Of a stretch of DNA of 42,670 bases, positions 25,529 through 34,581 are shown one piece after another. Made by a program: the position numbers and the translations under genes. Each line of letters opens with the position of its first letter. Position 1 is the first letter of the stretch. Source of the DNA: a virus. Under the pieces are notes generated by a model. That model was given only the letters and a program-made list of their open reading frames with translations. It ran no database searches and was not told where the DNA came from. The stretch lies in IMG/VR virus record IMGVR_UViG_3300025154_000189, positions 1-42,670 of that record. One strand, 5' to 3'.

Positions 25529-27082
25529 ATGGCTAATAAGATACTTATATCGAAGAACAAAATAGAAATTCACTGCGCCAAAGGTGATATTGATACACAA
25601 ACTAAACTTGTAGATATCAACCCGTTGCATTTTAATAGGTCAAGAACAATATTTACATGTTCTGCGCATTTTGTTCCTGAGATACTGCACTTACTTAGAG
25701 GTGTTACTAAGGACAACATTGAATCAGCGCCGCTGAAAATTCAAGAGTATTTCAATAATGAGATTCGTATTAGAGAGAATATGCAGGATTTGTTAGTCAA
25801 TGGTCCGCGTATGTCACCTTACATAAACAGTAACTTAACATTAAAGAAACACCAACAGTTAGGTAGAGAGATTGCGATGTATCAAGATAAGTTTGGTTTC
25901 TTTTATGATACACGTACAGGCAAAACACCGTTATCACTGGCGATAATTAATGATGACCTACAAGTAAATCCTAATCATAAGTGGTTAGTAATTTGTCCGT
26001 TGATTTTAATAGACAACGCTTGGCTTGAAGACGCTGCTAAATTTGTACCTTACATATCTTTTATAAACTGTCACGCATCTACAAAGCAAAATAGGCTAAA
26101 GCAAATAGCTAAGCCCGGCAACGTATACATAACTAACACAGAGTCATTTATAACATACCGTACATATTTTGATAAAATTAACTTTGCTGGTTGCATTTTC
26201 GACGAAAGTTCTGACATAAAGAGTAACAGTTCTAAAGTCAGTAAAGAGATTGTAGATTTTGCGGCGCATGTGCCGAGGTTCTACTTACTATCTGGAACGC
26301 CCGCTGCTAATGGTGAGTATGAGTACTTTATGCAAATCCGTGCTATAGATTACTACGGATTTCAACAGAGTTACGAACAGTTTAAAAAGTATTATTTTGT
26401 TAATGTGGCGTATAACTCAAGATTTGAGAGACTTATGTTAAGGCCTGACAGAGAACAGGAATTTTATGAAACATTACGTAAGTACAGTATCTTCATAGAT
26501 AAAGAGGATGTTCTAACGACACCAGGTAGGACCTTTCTTGAAGTCGAGTTGGATATGCCTAAGGATCTCAAGCAGCACTACAACTTGTTAAAGAATCAGA
26601 TGTATCTTGAAGTTGAGAATGAAAAGTTCATAACTACTGCGAACGCTGCTGCGAAGATGAACAAACTTAATCAGGTTGCGTCTGGTTTTATTATTGATAC
26701 AGGCGCAAAAAAGGACAATAAGTTGTTCAAAGATGACGAAAGTTATGAAAAACAGCAAGAATGGTACCTACTAAATGAGTTTCGTTTCCATAAGCTTGCT
26801 GAGCTACTTTCATCAGGGAAATGTGTTGGTAAACAGGTTTTAATATGGGCAAACTACAGGAATGAGTTCGAGCTAATTAAGAAGATGTTAGGCGCCAACT
26901 GCAGGCTCATATATGGAGCGACTTCTCTTAAAGAGAAGTCAGAAGCGATTAGGTTATTCAAGGAAAAACGTATACAATACCTTGTAGCTAACCCTGCTTC
27001 TGCTGATAAAGGTTTGACGTTAACTAATGCTCACATCGCTGTTTACTTTAGTCTAAATTGGTCGTACGAGCTCTTAGACTAA
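25529..27082 (+). CDS. SNF2/DEAD-like superfamily II helicase, interrupted by in-frame TAA
   Basis: 517 aa in this frame. Motif I is TRTGKT (K132), motif II DESS (D225, E226), motif III LLSGTPAANG, and the second RecA domain has VLIWANYRNEFELI and VANPASADKGLTLTNAH. ATP-driven translocation on phage DNA is expected, perhaps with the VRR-NUC nuclease encoded next, a common phage pair. The frame ends at TAA 27080-27082 after LNWSYELLD, exactly where motif VI (Q-SYERI) should start, and the rest continues in the same frame. If no read-through occurs the enzyme lacks the arginine motif and would be inactive. Confidence 0.85.
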   Translation: MANKILISKNKIEIHCAKGDIDTQTKLVDINPLHFNRSRTIFTCSAHFVPEILHLLRGVTKDNIESAPLKIQEYFNNEIRIRENMQDLLVNGPRMSPYINSNLTLKKHQQLGREIAMYQDKFGFFYDTRTGKTPLSLAIINDDLQVNPNHKWLVICPLILIDNAWLEDAAKFVPYISFINCHASTKQNRLKQIAKPGNVYITNTESFITYRTYFDKINFAGCIFDESSDIKSNSSKVSKEIVDFAAHVPRFYLLSGTPAANGEYEYFMQIRAIDYYGFQQSYEQFKKYYFVNVAYNSRFERLMLRPDREQEFYETLRKYSIFIDKEDVLTTPGRTFLEVELDMPKDLKQHYNLLKNQMYLEVENEKFITTANAAAKMNKLNQVASGFIIDTGAKKDNKLFKDDESYEKQQEWYLLNEFRFHKLAELLSSGKCVGKQVLIWANYRNEFELIKKMLGANCRLIYGATSLKEKSEAIRLFKEKRIQYLVANPASADKGLTLTNAHIAVYFSLNWSYELLD

Positions 27083-27758: not shown

Positions 27759-28222
27759 CCGATGCAATCAGCTTTGGGTATGAAGCATTGTGGAAAGCTG
27801 TTACAACGTATAGTGCTGATAAAGACGTAAAGTTTTCTACATATGCTACTGTATGTATTTTCAACGCACTAGGTTCATACGTTAGGACACTTAATAGACA
27901 ACGTCAACTTGAAGTTATCTCGTATAACAATATTGTAGATAACACTACAGAGTACTTAGAACTACTGAAGTCACCTGTAGATATAGAGGATGATTATATA
28001 CGTAATGAGTACGCTAATGTGTTAGATACAACCCTTGAATCTGTTTTCAATATGCTTAGTAAAAAGCATAAAGAAATAATAACGCGTTGGATTGAGTCAG
28101 ATTTTGAGGCTACTGCAACACAGATAGCAAAGGAAGTCGGATGTTCACAATCCTACGTAAGTCAAGTCGAAGCTATTTTCAAAGGAAAGTTTAAGAAAAG
28201 ATTGGAGGAGTCGAATTGCTAG
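27674..28222 (+). CDS. RNA polymerase sigma factor (sigma-70 family, phage)
   Basis: 182 aa, start TTG after GGAGGTGA. Region 2 is recognisable (DADAISFGYEALWKAVTTY then VKFSTYATVCIFNALGSYVR, about residues 28-75). Region 4 has the helix-turn-helix ATATQIAKEVGCSQSYVSQVE near 150-170. Such short two-region factors redirect host polymerase to phage promoters, usually for late genes; targets could be motifs such as 694-711. Its start is buried in a strong stem, suggesting tight control. It overlaps the ligase gene by 7 bases. Confidence 0.85.
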   Translation: MRDGIETVINQNVGLLYKQLHKFHLASDADAISFGYEALWKAVTTYSADKDVKFSTYATVCIFNALGSYVRTLNRQRQLEVISYNNIVDNTTEYLELLKSPVDIEDDYIRNEYANVLDTTLESVFNMLSKKHKEIITRWIESDFEATATQIAKEVGCSQSYVSQVEAIFKGKFKKRLEESNC

Positions 28223-29574
28223 AAGCCGCTCGCATTATTAATGCAATACAGAAGACGTCTGGTACTAATGACAAGAAAACTATACTGATAAGAAATCAGT
28301 CTAACCAGGCGCTAAGAGACATCTTGAAGTTTATCTACAATCCTTACTTAAAAGCAGGTATATCAGCTGCTAAGCTTAAGAAAGTACTATCATTTAGTGC
28401 CGCTAACGCTGTAGGTGAAAGACATCACGTAGATGTTAACTATGTGGAAGTAATTGAGTATTTATCAACACACACCACAGGTTCAGACGCCGACTTGCTA
28501 ATGGCTGCTCGTTTTATTAACAGCACCAAGTTAGCGTACAATTCTGATATCGCATATGAATTAGCTAAAGCCATTGTTACACAGAACCTAAAGATAGGCG
28601 TAGCTGTTAAAACACTTAATGAAGTATTTGGTGTAGACTTTATACCTGTCGTTGGTTGTATGCTTGGTACTAAGTATAGTGATTTAGGACCGAATAAGAT
28701 AGAATGGCCTTGCATAGTGACCGAGAAACTAGATGGCATTCGCCGCATACTCGTTAAAGAAAATGGTGTTTGTAGATTATTTAGTCGCTCTGGTCATGAG
28801 GATACTGGTCTGGTTGATATTGTTAAAGAAGCGCGTTTGTTACCTAATAATACAGTGTATGATGGTGAGCTACTCGCTGCTGGGACCTACAGAGATAGTA
28901 TTGCACTTCGTCAGGTTACGAACTCTATAGCGAGTCTATTGGGTACTAAAACTGGACTTATATTCAACATATTTGATATGGCGCCTGTTGATGAATTCTA
29001 TCGAGGTATATCTGGACAAGTTGCACTAGTGCGTAAAGTAACTCTTGGAGCTATACTGATGGATAATAGCATCGCGTTGTTACCTACAAGGCAACCTGCT
29101 GATGAACTTATCAAAAAATTCGGTTTGCATCAGGAACTGTCATTTATCAAGTCAGTGCCTATTCTCGGCTATATCAATGAGTTATCAGAAGCAGACGAAA
29201 TTGTTAAAGGTATTTGGGGTCGCGGCGGTGAGGGTATTATGCTTAACACAAAGAATGGCAGGTATGAAGTTAAACGCTCTAAGCACCTTATAAAGGTTAA
29301 GCATACAGAAGAGATGAACCTAACCATTGTAGATTTTATAGAAGGTACTGGTAAATACGAAGGCATGTTAGGATCACTAGTTGTAGCTTATAAAGGACAT
29401 AAGGTAGGCGTAGGTACTGGCTTTACTGATAATCAGCGCCGCGACATATGGGAAAATCAAGGAAAGTACATCGGACGCAACATAGAATTTGACACATTTG
29501 GTGAATCTACTGATAAGTTCGGTACAGTATCACTTAACTGCCCTGTATTCAAGCGGTTCGTTGGAGAAGAGTAA
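28216..29574 (+). CDS. ATP-dependent DNA ligase
   Basis: 452 aa, start TTG 28216 after GGAGG. It seals nicks using ATP. Catalytic lysine K171 lies in motif I (TEKLDGIRR); motif III is near VYDGELLA; motifs IV (GRGGEGIMLN) and V (IKVKHTEEM) follow, then an OB-fold (GSLVVAYKGHKVGVGTGF). Residues 1-150 form a helical N-terminal DNA-binding domain as in larger phage ligases. It belongs to the replication operon with sigma factor and RNase H. Confidence 0.92.
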   Translation: MLEAARIINAIQKTSGTNDKKTILIRNQSNQALRDILKFIYNPYLKAGISAAKLKKVLSFSAANAVGERHHVDVNYVEVIEYLSTHTTGSDADLLMAARFINSTKLAYNSDIAYELAKAIVTQNLKIGVAVKTLNEVFGVDFIPVVGCMLGTKYSDLGPNKIEWPCIVTEKLDGIRRILVKENGVCRLFSRSGHEDTGLVDIVKEARLLPNNTVYDGELLAAGTYRDSIALRQVTNSIASLLGTKTGLIFNIFDMAPVDEFYRGISGQVALVRKVTLGAILMDNSIALLPTRQPADELIKKFGLHQELSFIKSVPILGYINELSEADEIVKGIWGRGGEGIMLNTKNGRYEVKRSKHLIKVKHTEEMNLTIVDFIEGTGKYEGMLGSLVVAYKGHKVGVGTGFTDNQRRDIWENQGKYIGRNIEFDTFGESTDKFGTVSLNCPVFKRFVGEE

Positions 29575-29762: not shown

Positions 29763-30422
29763 ATGTTACGTATAGCAATAGACGGCGCGTGTCGCCGTAA
29801 TGGTAAACCGGATTGTATATCTGCTGGCGGTGTGTTTGTAATGAGTTATGATGATTTAAAGCTTACGCGCACTTATACATTATCTGGTTATGAATTTAAT
29901 TCTACAAGCCAACGTGGTGAACTACAAGCTTTGCTTATGGCGTTAGACTATGTAAATATGTATAAACAGGACGCACAGATTATTACTGACTCTGAGTACT
30001 TATTCAATACAGTGACCAAGGAATGGTATAAGAATTGGGAACGTAAAGGTTGGGTCACTGCAGTGAATGAACCAGTTAAGAACGTTGATATGTGGCGTAA
30101 AATAAGTTCAGCTATAAGTGTGTGTGCAACAGACATAATACTTTATCACATAAAAGGTCATTGTATACCATTTGGTAAAGTAACAGCATCGAACTTACTT
30201 GACACAGATGGTACTGGCCTAGCGTTACTTAAAGCCGTAGACGCTAAGTACGACCAAGTTAAAGACTCTAAGTCTGATAATATTTTGAAAGCTACACAGC
30301 TGTCCGAAAAGAACAATGGTTTTGCACTGGAAGATGAACAGCTTAAAGCATTCATAGTTGCCAACGTAGTTGCCGACGCAATAGCTACAAGGTGTATTGA
30401 TGCTTTATCGTTAGCTAACTAA
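29763..30422 (+). CDS. Ribonuclease H (RNase HI-like)
   Basis: 219 aa. Catalytic acids D7 (IAIDGAC), E53 (QRGELQAL), D76 (IITDSEYL) and a C-terminal aspartate in VVADAIAT near 207 are all present, with the YNTVTKEW-like helix between. It removes RNA primers or R-loops during phage replication. It is longer than typical RNase HI (about 155 aa) because of an insertion at about 145-195. The ATG directly follows the previous TAG, with GAAGGTGA as ribosome site. Confidence 0.9.
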   Translation: MLRIAIDGACRRNGKPDCISAGGVFVMSYDDLKLTRTYTLSGYEFNSTSQRGELQALLMALDYVNMYKQDAQIITDSEYLFNTVTKEWYKNWERKGWVTAVNEPVKNVDMWRKISSAISVCATDIILYHIKGHCIPFGKVTASNLLDTDGTGLALLKAVDAKYDQVKDSKSDNILKATQLSEKNNGFALEDEQLKAFIVANVVADAIATRCIDALSLAN

Positions 30423-30717: not shown

Positions 30718-31554
30718 ATGACTAAATCTACTGTTGTTAACGAAACTGAAGCTACAGTTGTTGACGAGAAAGAAGTTGTTCAGGCAAAAGAAGTAGCGGA
30801 AGTAAAAGAAGCCGCTTCAAATGAAACTGCTATTGCAACACAGCAGGACATTCCGATGGGCTTTGAGGACGATAATCCAGAGGATATGATTATACCGCGT
30901 GTCAAGGTTATTCAGACTTTAAGTCCTGAGCGTAAGGATAAGATTGCTGAGGAAGGTGACATCCTTAACTCTCTGACAAAGGAAAAGATTAATGGTAAGA
31001 TATTCATTCCGGTATTTAAGTTCAATAACAATATCGAGTGGCGCCCAAGGAATGATGGCGGCGGTATTGTATGTCAGGCCCGCGACGCTAAGCTAGGTGA
31101 AAAGTCAGACGGTACGCGTATGCTGTGCATATCCTGTAAGCGTTGTGAGTTTGACAATACTAAGCAAGGCAGCGACGCAGCGCCGAAGTGCACTAAGTAC
31201 ATCAACTTCTTCGGTTTCTTTGCCGGTGAAAGAATGCCTATCATCTTGAGTTTTGCAAAGACTAACTACAATGAAGGTAAAAAGGTATACAGCTTGGCGA
31301 AAGTAACAATGCAAAACATGTGGAATTACGGTTACCGGTTGGATGAGAAACTAATTTCGAAGAATGGTAATGAGTGGTACAATATTGTAGGTACTCCTGC
31401 CGGCGCTACTTCTGTTGAAGACCGCGATTTTGGTTTATCACTTTACAAGCAATTTAGAGCCAATGTAACTAGCCTTAATATTGACCTTGAAGACTCAAAC
31501 GCTGCAGCCGCAGAACAAGCTCCTGTTGTTGACGTTGACAAAGTAGAGTACTAA
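30718..31554 (+). CDS. Putative ssDNA-binding/recombination accessory protein
   Basis: 278 aa. The first 45 residues are a Glu/Val/Ala-rich disordered tail. Residues 55-235 form the core (DMIIPRVKVIQTLSPERKDK, then KIFIPVFKFNNNIEWRPRND) with four cysteines (CISCKRCEFDN and PKC near 135-160) that may bind zinc. The C-terminus is acidic (DVDKVEY). Such proteins occur in phage replication blocks and are sometimes annotated as single-strand binding proteins. Position before the primase-helicase supports that, but I cannot identify an OB-fold with certainty. Confidence 0.5.
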   Translation: MTKSTVVNETEATVVDEKEVVQAKEVAEVKEAASNETAIATQQDIPMGFEDDNPEDMIIPRVKVIQTLSPERKDKIAEEGDILNSLTKEKINGKIFIPVFKFNNNIEWRPRNDGGGIVCQARDAKLGEKSDGTRMLCISCKRCEFDNTKQGSDAAPKCTKYINFFGFFAGERMPIILSFAKTNYNEGKKVYSLAKVTMQNMWNYGYRLDEKLISKNGNEWYNIVGTPAGATSVEDRDFGLSLYKQFRANVTSLNIDLEDSNAAAAEQAPVVDVDKVEY

Positions 31555-31611: not shown

Positions 31612-34581
31612 ATGCTTTGGAGTGAGTATACAAATCGCATTCTAGCCGAGATAGACAACGAAGCCTTTTTCTTGAATGAACTTAAAAACATTCAACGTAG
31701 AGGACAGGAAGTCAAAGCAGAATGTCCGTTCAAGGAACTACATGGTTCGCAGACTGATAATAATCCTTCATTAACTGTAAACGTATCAAGAGGTGTGTAC
31801 TACTGTAATAGTTGTCATTCAAAAGGTAACGTACACACAATGTATAGGCATTTGTATGGACTTACACCTGAGCAAGCTTGGTTTCAATTAGGTGACGCAT
31901 TAAAACTTCAAAGACCTGACGGTACTAAACCTACAAGACCTGATATTAACATAGGGTTAGTACAACTGTACCATAAGCAGCTTATTAATTTAACTGGCCC
32001 AATAAGAGATATATTACGAGAAAGACGTGGGTTAACTGATGATACTCTAAAGCGCTTTCAGCTTGGTTGGGATGGCGAACGAATAACAATTCCAATATAC
32101 GATGAATACAACACGTTAGTTAATTTCAGGCGCTATAAATGGAACTCAACTGATGACCAATGGAAAGTACTTAACTATATAGATGAACTTAACAACTCGT
32201 ATGGTGAAGTTCGCATCTTTGGTATAGACAAGATTGTAGATACTTCTATTGAGTACGTAGTATGGTGTGAAGGTGAAATGGACTGTATATGTGCTACGCA
32301 GCATGGTTTCCCATCTGCGTGCCCAACGTCTGGTGCAGGTACATGGAAAGCTGATTGGACAAAGTTGTTTAGGAATAAGAAGCGCGTATATTTAGTACAA
32401 GATAATGATGAAGCAGGACGTAACGCAGCTAATAAGCTTTGTGAAAAACTGTATCGTGTAGTTGATGTCTATTTAATTAATTGGCCAGAAAATTTCCCAG
32501 ATAAGGGAGATACAACAGACTTCTTTACAAAGTGTGGTCTTGGTACTGAAGATTTTCAGCGGCTGCTAGACAACGCTGTTCAGTACATTGATAGTACACT
32601 GGCTGATAACAGAATCGCTGATGAGGCCGATGCACAAGAAGTACACCTATCTGATAGCTCCGAAGCAGGCTTCTATGGTAAGAGATTACGTATTCCTGTT
32701 ATGGTAAGTGGTAAAGATAACACGCCGTATATATGTCCAAAGGTAATTAGAGTGCGCTGCGGCGACGCAGCTGATAGTGAGAATAAGCGGTGTGAAAAAT
32801 GTAGTCTAGCTGTACATGCTGGTGAAATTAATAAGACATTAACGTCTGCTGATAAAGATATTTTAAAGCTTATAAAATGTACTGAGAAGCAACAACAAGC
32901 AGCTATACATGAAATGTTAGGTGTTAACCATAAATGCACGCAACACAGTCTTGACATAATAGAGTATATGAACATAGAAGAGTTAAGGTTGATACCTAAG
33001 GCTGAAGCAAACTTTGGTTTTTCTAAAGAGCATGATTATGTAGTTAGGACTGGCCACTACATTGGTAATAACTTAAAGACTAATAAGCGCTACACCATGG
33101 CTGGTTACATGTACGCAGAACCTACGACTCAGTACGCAACATGTATGTTTGATAAAGCGTATCCTGAGAAGGATTTAATAAGTGACTTTGAATTAACTGA
33201 TGAGGTACTCGAACAGCTTAAAACTTTCAGAGTTAAACCCGGTCAAACAGTTAAAGAAAAGTTTGATGAGATTCACATAGACTTGGAGCGTAACGTAACC
33301 TACATATGGGAGAGGCGTAACATAGCGTTTGCAGTTGATCTAATATACCACACTGTACTTAACTTTTATTTTCAAGAACAATTTGTTAAACGTGGTTGGG
33401 GTGAGTTACTAATCATAGGTGACTCTGGACAAGCTAAAACTACTGTTGTAGAGCGCTTGATGAATCACTATAGACTAGGTGAACTACACTCTGGCGAGTC
33501 CTCTCGTAGGACAGGCTTAGTGTACAACATGCAGCAAAACAATAAACGATGGTTTCTTGTCTGGGGTGCGTTTCCATTAAACGATGGAGGATTGATAACT
33601 CTTGACGAATTATCTGGACTTAGCGAAGAAGATTTGTCCATTATGTCTGACGTCAGGTCTTCAGGAATCGCTAAAGCAACTGGTGTCATTACTGCAGAAA
33701 CAAGTTGCAGGACTAGAGCAATCTACATCTCGAACCCTAGAAATGGTAGACAGCTCAATTCAGAAACATATGGTGTTACAGCTGTACTCAAGCTTATGGG
33801 TAAAGCAGAAGACGTTAGACGTCTCGATATCGCAATGTCTGTTGCATCTGGAGACGTTGACCCATCACTCATCAACAGAGCAGTTGAGGACTTTCCTAGC
33901 ATCGGGCATGTTTATACCTCGGATCTGTGTAACTCACGCGTACTGTGGGCATGGAGTAGGCGGCCAGAAAATGTTAAAATCACGCATGAAGCTACAAAAC
34001 GTATCCTTGAATGTGCGACGGAGATGGGCTCAAAATACACTTCGAAGATACCAATAGTTGAGGCAGCTGATCAACGCATAAAGATAGCTAGACTATCAAT
34101 AGCTACTGCATGTTGTGTGTTTTCTTCTGATGAAGCCGGTGAAAACGTAATTGTTAAGCCAGAGCATGTAAACTTTGTTGTAGATTTTATGACGGAGTTA
34201 TATAGTGCGAAAAGCTTTGGTTATGATAAACTTAGTGAGCAAGAAAAAGTTACAACTGATTCATCCGACGATAATATTAGCAAGTTACGCGCTATGTTCT
34301 TGACACTACCTATTATGGATGCTAATGAAATGGCTACTGTACTGTATCAACTACCGTACTTTAGCCGAGCTACACTTGAGGATTACACAGGCTTATCAAA
34401 AGATGACCTTAAGATGCTACTGAAGTTTATGACTAATCAACACCTTGTAGATAAGGTTAGAGGTGACTACAGAAGATTGCCTTTAGGTACTGAATTGTTT
34501 AAGAACTTAACTATCATACCAGTAAGTAAAAAGGAAATTGACGAAGCTAGGAAAGAGTTCTACAGCGCCGCGGACTACTAG
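31612..34581 (+). CDS. Primase-helicase: CHC2 zinc finger, TOPRIM, MCM-like AAA+ domain
   Basis: 989 aa. Residues 38-68 form the CHC2 finger (C38, H44, C65, C68). TOPRIM acids are E220 (WCEGEMD) and D264/D266 (VQDNDEAG). Residues about 380-600 are a linker with a cysteine cluster near 390-402. The C-terminal AAA+ unit has Walker A GDSGQAKTT (603-611), Walker B LITLDELSG (D665, E666), SSGIAKATGVI, sensor ISNPR (N708) and EDVRRLD (R736/R737) as arginine motif. This order and wording resemble MCM helicases (GDPGTAKS, IDEFDKM, SISKAGI, AANP, SRFD), not DnaB or T7 gp4. It should prime and unwind at the phage fork. The MCM relation is my reading of motifs. Confidence 0.85.
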   Translation: MLWSEYTNRILAEIDNEAFFLNELKNIQRRGQEVKAECPFKELHGSQTDNNPSLTVNVSRGVYYCNSCHSKGNVHTMYRHLYGLTPEQAWFQLGDALKLQRPDGTKPTRPDINIGLVQLYHKQLINLTGPIRDILRERRGLTDDTLKRFQLGWDGERITIPIYDEYNTLVNFRRYKWNSTDDQWKVLNYIDELNNSYGEVRIFGIDKIVDTSIEYVVWCEGEMDCICATQHGFPSACPTSGAGTWKADWTKLFRNKKRVYLVQDNDEAGRNAANKLCEKLYRVVDVYLINWPENFPDKGDTTDFFTKCGLGTEDFQRLLDNAVQYIDSTLADNRIADEADAQEVHLSDSSEAGFYGKRLRIPVMVSGKDNTPYICPKVIRVRCGDAADSENKRCEKCSLAVHAGEINKTLTSADKDILKLIKCTEKQQQAAIHEMLGVNHKCTQHSLDIIEYMNIEELRLIPKAEANFGFSKEHDYVVRTGHYIGNNLKTNKRYTMAGYMYAEPTTQYATCMFDKAYPEKDLISDFELTDEVLEQLKTFRVKPGQTVKEKFDEIHIDLERNVTYIWERRNIAFAVDLIYHTVLNFYFQEQFVKRGWGELLIIGDSGQAKTTVVERLMNHYRLGELHSGESSRRTGLVYNMQQNNKRWFLVWGAFPLNDGGLITLDELSGLSEEDLSIMSDVRSSGIAKATGVITAETSCRTRAIYISNPRNGRQLNSETYGVTAVLKLMGKAEDVRRLDIAMSVASGDVDPSLINRAVEDFPSIGHVYTSDLCNSRVLWAWSRRPENVKITHEATKRILECATEMGSKYTSKIPIVEAADQRIKIARLSIATACCVFSSDEAGENVIVKPEHVNFVVDFMTELYSAKSFGYDKLSEQEKVTTDSSDDNISKLRAMFLTLPIMDANEMATVLYQLPYFSRATLEDYTGLSKDDLKMLLKFMTNQHLVDKVRGDYRRLPLGTELFKNLTIIPVSKKEIDEARKEFYSAADY

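Follow-up and report, generated by a model that had tools for sequence, protein, structure and literature searches.

The primase (DnaG or AEP) and the ring helicase (DnaB or MCM) are treated as the two packages by which bacteria are set apart from archaea and eukaryotes. The locus described here raises the question of what to make of a phage gene in which both packages appear to be mixed in one polypeptide, a DnaG-type CHC2/TOPRIM primase followed by an MCM-like AAA+ helicase (TOPRIM-MCM). The gene lies in a viral sequence of 42,670 nucleotides, positions 1 to 42,670 of IMG/VR record IMGVR_UViG_3300025154_000189, which was analysed as a whole and is called the window below. MCM helicases of bacterial phages and plasmids are already known, joined to AEP primases (PMC5862659; PMC4538821). 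In the open-licence literature we found no description of a TOPRIM-MCM fusion, and the literature search returned no biochemistry on any TOPRIM-MCM.

The gene is one open reading frame with an ATG start and without an internal stop, and its product divides into two parts, a DnaG-type CHC2 zinc finger and TOPRIM core in residues 1–330 and the MCM-like helicase in residues ~336–960 (Table 1). For the primase half, Pfam places Zn_ribbon_DnaG (PF01807) at residues 23–99 (36.0 bits, cut-off 24.9) and Toprim_2 at residues 219–294 (42.9 bits, cut-off 22.1). In the alignment of relatives the zinc ligands C38, C65 and C68 are kept in 30/30 covering rows and H44 in 28/28, while the TOPRIM acids E220/E222 and D264/D266 are kept almost without exception in 32 relatives. 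Profile A3, built from 12 diverse relatives of which one is an AEP-MCM, matches this half to Aquifex DnaG (2au3) with an E-value of 1.1e-28. The bacterial DnaG model, NCBIfam TIGR01391, gives 104.4 bits, which is below its cut-off of 283.6. We assign residues 1–330 as a divergent phage DnaG-type core and not as a bacterial DnaG; the DnaG-type assignment made earlier from the letters of the sequence is upheld by profile, profile-profile and fold comparison.

Table 1. Features of the primase-helicase gene and of its upstream neighbours, in window coordinates.
Feature	Residues	Position	Strand	Basis
SNF2/UvsW-type SF2 helicase, not a ring helicase		25529..27082	+	domain matches
ATP-dependent DNA ligase, replication module		28216..29574	+	domain matches
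RNase H, replication module (primer removal)		29763..30422	+	domain matches
Pam3_Gp34-family protein, directly upstream of the primase-helicase, weak SSB candidate		30718..31554	+	PF23977, 89.8 bits
TOPRIM-MCM primase-helicase, 989 aa		31612..34581	+	ORF and domain matches
CHC2 zinc-binding domain (C38, H44, C65, C68)	23–99	31678..31908	+	Pfam PF01807
DnaG-type RNA polymerase core with TOPRIM (E220, E222, D264, D266)	120–327	31969..32592	+	Toprim_2, Aquifex DnaG match, conserved residues
MCM-like N-terminal domain, OB-type beta barrel	336–520	32617..33171	+	start of AEP-MCM homology, Foldseek, hhalign, invariant Cys
MCM-type AAA+ motor	565–837	33304..34122	+	PF00493, SsoMCM 4fdg match
Walker A, GDSGQAKTT	603–611	33418..33444	+	K609 invariant
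Helix-2 insert	635–660	33514..33591	+	in register with MCM; model strands 638–643 and 646–650 at low pLDDT
Walker B, LITLDELSG	661–669	33592..33618	+	D665 31/32, E666 32/32
Pre-sensor-1 hairpin, RSSGIAKATGVITAETSCRTR	682–702	33655..33717	+	spacing and alignment with MCM
Sensor 1, YISNP	705–709	33724..33738	+	N708 invariant
Arginine finger, EDVRRLD, equivalent of MCM SRFD	733–739	33808..33828	+	R737 and D739 invariant; aligned to SRFD
Sensor 2, R822	817–828	34060..34095	+	R822 invariant; aligned to MCM sensor-2 helix
C-terminal winged helix	885–960	34264..34491	+	H-H-H-E-E pattern in model; hhalign near end of archaeal-virus MCM

The helicase half carries the set of parts expected of an MCM, namely a Zn/OB-type N-terminal domain, an AAA+ motor with helix-2 and pre-sensor-1 inserts, an MCM-type arginine finger, sensors 1 and 2 and a C-terminal winged helix. 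The Pfam domain MCM (PF00493) matches residues 565–717 with 43.8 bits against a cut-off of 23.3, and the next AAA+ family, AAA_5, reaches only an E-value of 0.2. We dropped PF00493 as proof on its own: because it also finds matches in 14/14 control genomes, including that of E. coli, the weight of the assignment rests on the SsoMCM profile match and the Foldseek matches. MCMs and DnaG are the best PDB sequence matches of the 989-residue protein, with an MCM first (3f9v, E 8e-10, residues 594–837), and profile A3 reaches SsoMCM (4fdg) at an E-value of 4.8e-15 in an alignment that runs from the P-loop to sensor 2. When the AlphaFold model was compared with the PDB by Foldseek, the top 50 matches were all MCM subunits, with E-values to 3e-19, and the alignments extended over 560–660 columns, about the whole length of an MCM chain and including the N-tier. 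A comparison by hhalign with four archaeal-virus MCMs gave 99.1% over 460 columns, from about residue 450, late in the OB domain, to the winged helix.

The details of the motor agree with this. Conservation was counted in 32 relatives, the most distant of them at about 30% identity. The distance from the Walker A lysine to the Walker B aspartate is 56 residues, compared with 58 in archaeal MCM, and that from the Walker B aspartate to the sensor-1 asparagine is 43 residues, compared with 44; the insert region aligns to MCM with a gap of two residues. Alignment register and motif spacings thus place both the helix-2 insert and the pre-sensor-1 hairpin, the regions where the AlphaFold model has a pLDDT below 50 (629–659 and 667–699). 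The canonical pre-sensor-1 lysine position is not kept in the subfamily of the window protein, where K688 (K or R in 28/32) sits 2–3 residues earlier. An MCM-type arginine finger (SRFD) and sensor-2 arginine are represented by R737 and R822. In the N-terminal domain, C383, C394, C397 and C442 are invariant in 32 rows, and the model supplies the OB and zinc-finger tier of an MCM with predicted zinc binding, although the spacing of these cysteines differs from that in cellular MCM.

The earlier note had read this DNA as a CHC2 finger and TOPRIM core in one chain with an AAA+ module whose motifs resemble MCM. Three Pfam domains above their cut-offs bear out the domain content, and the motifs that it quoted are all found in the order claimed (GDSGQAKTT 603–611, LDELSG 664–669, SSGIAKATGVI 683–693, ISNPR 706–710, EDVRRLD 733–739). 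Its reading of the AAA+ module as MCM also holds, as profile, profile-profile and fold comparisons all return MCMs, and the two inserts that it proposed to look for are present and in register. It had named SF3, DnaB and sigma54-type AAA+ proteins as the outcomes that would speak against MCM; MCM proved the best match among these profiles and folds, and an SF3, DnaB, sigma54 or MoxR/Mg-chelatase identity was discarded, such proteins being absent from the sequence and fold matches listed. SF3/D5 helicase families, likewise, appear nowhere among the Pfam, named PHROG or PDB matches. The cellular archaeal MCM model NCBIfam NF040949 gives 33.4 bits at residues 586–719 where its cut-off is 940, and for this reason we classify residues ~336–960, by sequence, as an MCM-like helicase at the superfamily level and not as a cellular MCM.

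How the two halves came together can be approached through relatives with a different primase. An AEP-type (PriS-type) primase replaces TOPRIM in gp45 of phage vB_BboS-125, in a Bacillus velezensis plasmid protein and in many IMG/VR contigs. The family phrog_18685 is such an AEP-MCM protein (vB_BboS-125 gp45 scores 1979 bits), and the window protein matches it in the MCM part only, at residues 336–958 with an E-value of 1.3e-115; no match to an AEP primase domain was obtained in the window protein, which has TOPRIM in its place. Since profile A3 includes an AEP-MCM row, its comparison with the AEP-MCM profile A6 was set aside and the TOPRIM-MCM profile A1 was used instead. Profiles A1 and A6 are homologous over residues 335–960 (617 columns, 33% identity), with no homology before residue 335. 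As far as alignments can tell, the junction is sharp and lies right behind the TOPRIM domain at ~335. Because the homology of the MCM module begins directly after the primase, we conclude that the primase has been exchanged and the helicase has not, the junction showing what reads as at least one non-homologous exchange. The suggestion in the earlier note that a TOPRIM-MCM replisome would be a separate solution therefore stands for the primase, which is separate, but not for the rest: the MCM module is the same as in the AEP-joined phage proteins, and the architecture is common in phages.

The number of exchanges was considered with trees. In a 46-row tree of the MCM module the clade of the window protein groups with an AEP-MCM, L168 (95/95), while 30 other TOPRIM-MCMs lie on a separate branch (96/89). 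This tree would need at least two primase changes, yet the AU test is borderline (p 0.0515 for the 46-row tree, 0.07 for a smaller tree), and in a comparison with ten phage TOPRIMs and Aquifex DnaG the TOPRIM domains of the TOPRIM-MCMs all fall into a single clade (99/94). Two independent gains of TOPRIM, at which the MCM-module tree hints, were not adopted on these grounds, and the single TOPRIM clade together with the borderline AU test makes one fusion origin for TOPRIM-MCM likely; the primase exchanges may have been one or several, and in either direction. In another tree archaeal-virus MCMs stand well apart from all phage modules (100/100). Two AEP relatives have unusual gene structures. 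In L077 (3625–6926) the AEP primase and the MCM-like helicase are two separate adjoining genes, which makes it a split version of this system. In L162 (1563–5977), on a 175-kb IMG/VR contig, the AEP part of the AEP-MCM is interrupted by an intein that has a LAGLIDADG endonuclease domain, and the two halves are in separate open frames.

The TOPRIM-MCM architecture is common in phages, and the family is poorly named. Homologues that are 46–100% identical are intact in more than 40 contigs. By tblastn, 47 phage records contain at least 80% of the protein at one place and 50 hold the MCM part; 36 of the latter are Microbacterium phages (Krampusvirus), and the rest include Bacillus BSP7/BSTP phages, vB_BboS-125, Weizmannia phage Youna2, Arthrobacter phage Wollypog, Paenibacillus phages and an environmental contig. 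The MCM module is encoded by 343 IMG/VR contigs, 80 of which were kept, and among the divergent contigs that were classified (n = 34) 30 have TOPRIM and 4 have AEP. The scan of genome contigs returned a single relative, in a Bacteroidales MAG. Relatives are annotated as 'DNA primase', 'DNA primase/helicase', 'DNA primase small subunit' or 'DNA directed DNA polymerase', and among the records opened an MCM-family homologue is mentioned only for vB_BboS-125, in a note. The 'DNA primase small subunit' of Youna2 (L107, 3960–6977) and the 'DNA directed DNA polymerase' of MW202657 (L082, 9053–11899) are misannotated TOPRIM-MCMs.

Over 42.3 kb the window shares 99.95% identity with an IMG/VR record of 63,166 bp, IMGVR_UViG_3300025011_000042, and it overlaps the other end of that record too (95%). 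It is a fragment of a longer genome, and the gene neighbourhood is real. Besides the genes in Table 1, a YqaJ exonuclease, ThyX, a dNMP kinase, a deaminase and a ribonucleotide reductase are encoded near the primase-helicase, and the 63-kb twin record has a family-A DNA polymerase just past the end of the window. Such a polymerase is found in 20/23 related records, DnaB_C in 0/23 by Pfam scan, and the Pfam scans gave no DnaB loader. The Pam3_Gp34 family, present in 19/26 related records, has an acidic C-terminal tail ending in EF or EY, as in phage and bacterial SSBs, which makes its member here a weak candidate for a single-stranded DNA-binding protein. RPA chains are among its top Foldseek matches, none of them significant, and an identification as SSB was not retained; a fold match to the PhiC31 recombination directionality factor is also weak (probability 0.97, TM 0.33–0.40). 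Elsewhere, Krampusvirus (L080) and Wollypog (L108) have DnaE-like polymerase genes with their TOPRIM-MCM, Krampus without a family-A enzyme; the polymerase may thus be a second component that is exchanged next to TOPRIM-MCM. In Bacillus phage BSP7 (L106) and in Youna2, TOPRIM-MCM is followed directly by QueC/QueD/QueE-like and GTP cyclohydrolase genes, which suggests 7-deazaguanine DNA modification in these two phages.

We propose, with a probability of roughly 0.8, that TOPRIM-MCM is a phage-encoded, self-contained primase-helicase of the replication fork, because it occurs in phages that have no DnaB and usually have their own family-A polymerase. The proposal starts from the domains, the catalytic residues, both MCM inserts, the MCM module common to AEP-MCM and the lack of DnaB-family genes in related records. 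Six copies would form an MCM-type ring of OB/zinc collar, AAA+ motor and winged helix, which would act as a helicase and unwind the phage DNA. BcMCM, an AEP-MCM, has been reported to be a 3′–5′ helicase with primase and polymerase activity (PMC4538821); by analogy with BcMCM and cellular MCM the phage ring probably moves 3′–5′, on the leading-strand template. The CHC2/TOPRIM primase of each subunit, on the collar side, would lay RNA primers, to be extended by the phage family-A polymerase and processed by its RNase H and ligase. In CMG, Pol alpha-primase sits on the N-tier face of MCM, above the lagging-strand exit (PMC10501992), and the phage primase may be placed analogously, on the N-tier over that exit. 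The fork geometry, we infer, would be that of eukaryotic-type lagging-strand priming with a bacterial-type primase, its polarity opposite to that of T7 gp4.

The counterpoint to a fork role is that host DnaB could act in trans. In a rival reading TOPRIM-MCM is an origin-specific initiator, whose MCM-like module binds and melts the phage origin, as with SaPI Rep and Cch-type proteins, and whose TOPRIM part primes the first strand before host DnaB drives the fork. Origin recognition could fall to the C-terminal winged helix, and mobile elements offer a precedent in SCCmec Cch, which is MCM-like, and Cch2, which binds an iteron, both being proposed initiators (PMC7581432). We nevertheless consider an initiator unlikely, as work at the fork is what one would expect of a chain that includes a lagging-strand-type primase and of a phage whose own replisome is nearly complete (PolA, ligase, RNase H), and the absence of a DnaB gene (23 related records) or a DnaB loader from the Pfam scans points the same way, though host DnaB is usable.

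It is less probable still that the primase alone is at work and that the MCM-like part serves as an AAA+ scaffold, inactive or at least no helicase. BrxL is a precedent, an MCM-like AAA+ protein without shown helicase activity (PMC10164562), and the shift of the pre-sensor-1 lysine would fit; but Walker A, Walker B, sensor 1, the arginine finger and sensor 2 vary little or not at all among 32 diverse relatives, and the MCM module is retained where the primase is exchanged. An artefact, either a chimeric assembly or two genes fused through sequencing error, has a negligible chance. The separate AEP and MCM halves of L077 are all that we found in its favour, whereas over 40 contigs, as well as finished genomes of cultured phages, carry the same single ORF, and chimeric assembly is refuted by these independent genomes.

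A fork primase-helicase of this kind is ordinary in its occurrence, and its interest lies in the primase exchange and the replisome geometry. Relatives of the same MCM motor bear either primase, which provides a natural experiment on what a fork needs from its primase, with a DnaG-type primase beside a motor of opposite polarity. With this analysis phrog_18685 and dozens of phage genes labelled 'DNA primase' also acquire a name and a likely function, and phages of Microbacterium, Arthrobacter and Bacillus subtilis are workable laboratory systems. A broader formulation, for which we see about even odds, makes TOPRIM-MCM a widespread class of phage primase-helicase that has not been described before. 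Its bacterial-type primase would be permanently joined to the N-tier of a 3′–5′ MCM ring on the leading-strand template, giving the fork geometry of the eukaryotic replisome, and one MCM module would have been swapped between two unrelated primases at a fixed junction (~335), possibly more than once.

What is already known are the parts and the order of primase before ring helicase; their combination sits uncommented in databases. In T7 gp4 and Twinkle a single chain holds an N-terminal CHC2 and TOPRIM primase and, behind it, a ring helicase; that helicase is RecA-type, of the DnaB family, and moves 5′–3′. The window protein shares the placement of a CHC2 and TOPRIM primase N-terminal to a ring helicase, but their RecA-type DnaB_C is absent from it by Pfam. 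With cellular MCM (SsoMCM, MCM2-7) it shares an AAA+ motor with helix-2 and pre-sensor-1 inserts, arginine finger, sensors, OB/Zn collar and winged helix, and differs in carrying a fused primase and in scoring far under the cellular-MCM cut-off. With AEP-MCM (phrog_18685; vB_BboS-125 gp45) it has in common a homologous MCM module that begins with the Zn/OB domain and extends into the winged helix, the order of primase then helicase and a family-A polymerase alongside, whereas the N-terminal primase of AEP-MCM is of the archaeo-eukaryotic PriS type and unrelated to CHC2/TOPRIM. The Bacillus cereus prophage protein BcMCM is the studied protein of this kind, its family tie to the AEP-MCM set being putative. 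Closest in design are Krampusvirus gp47, Wollypog gp50 and the proteins of BSP7 and Youna2, which have the same full TOPRIM-MCM architecture, aligned over 86–94% of the protein, at 28–31% identity to the window protein and on the other branch of the MCM module (96/89).
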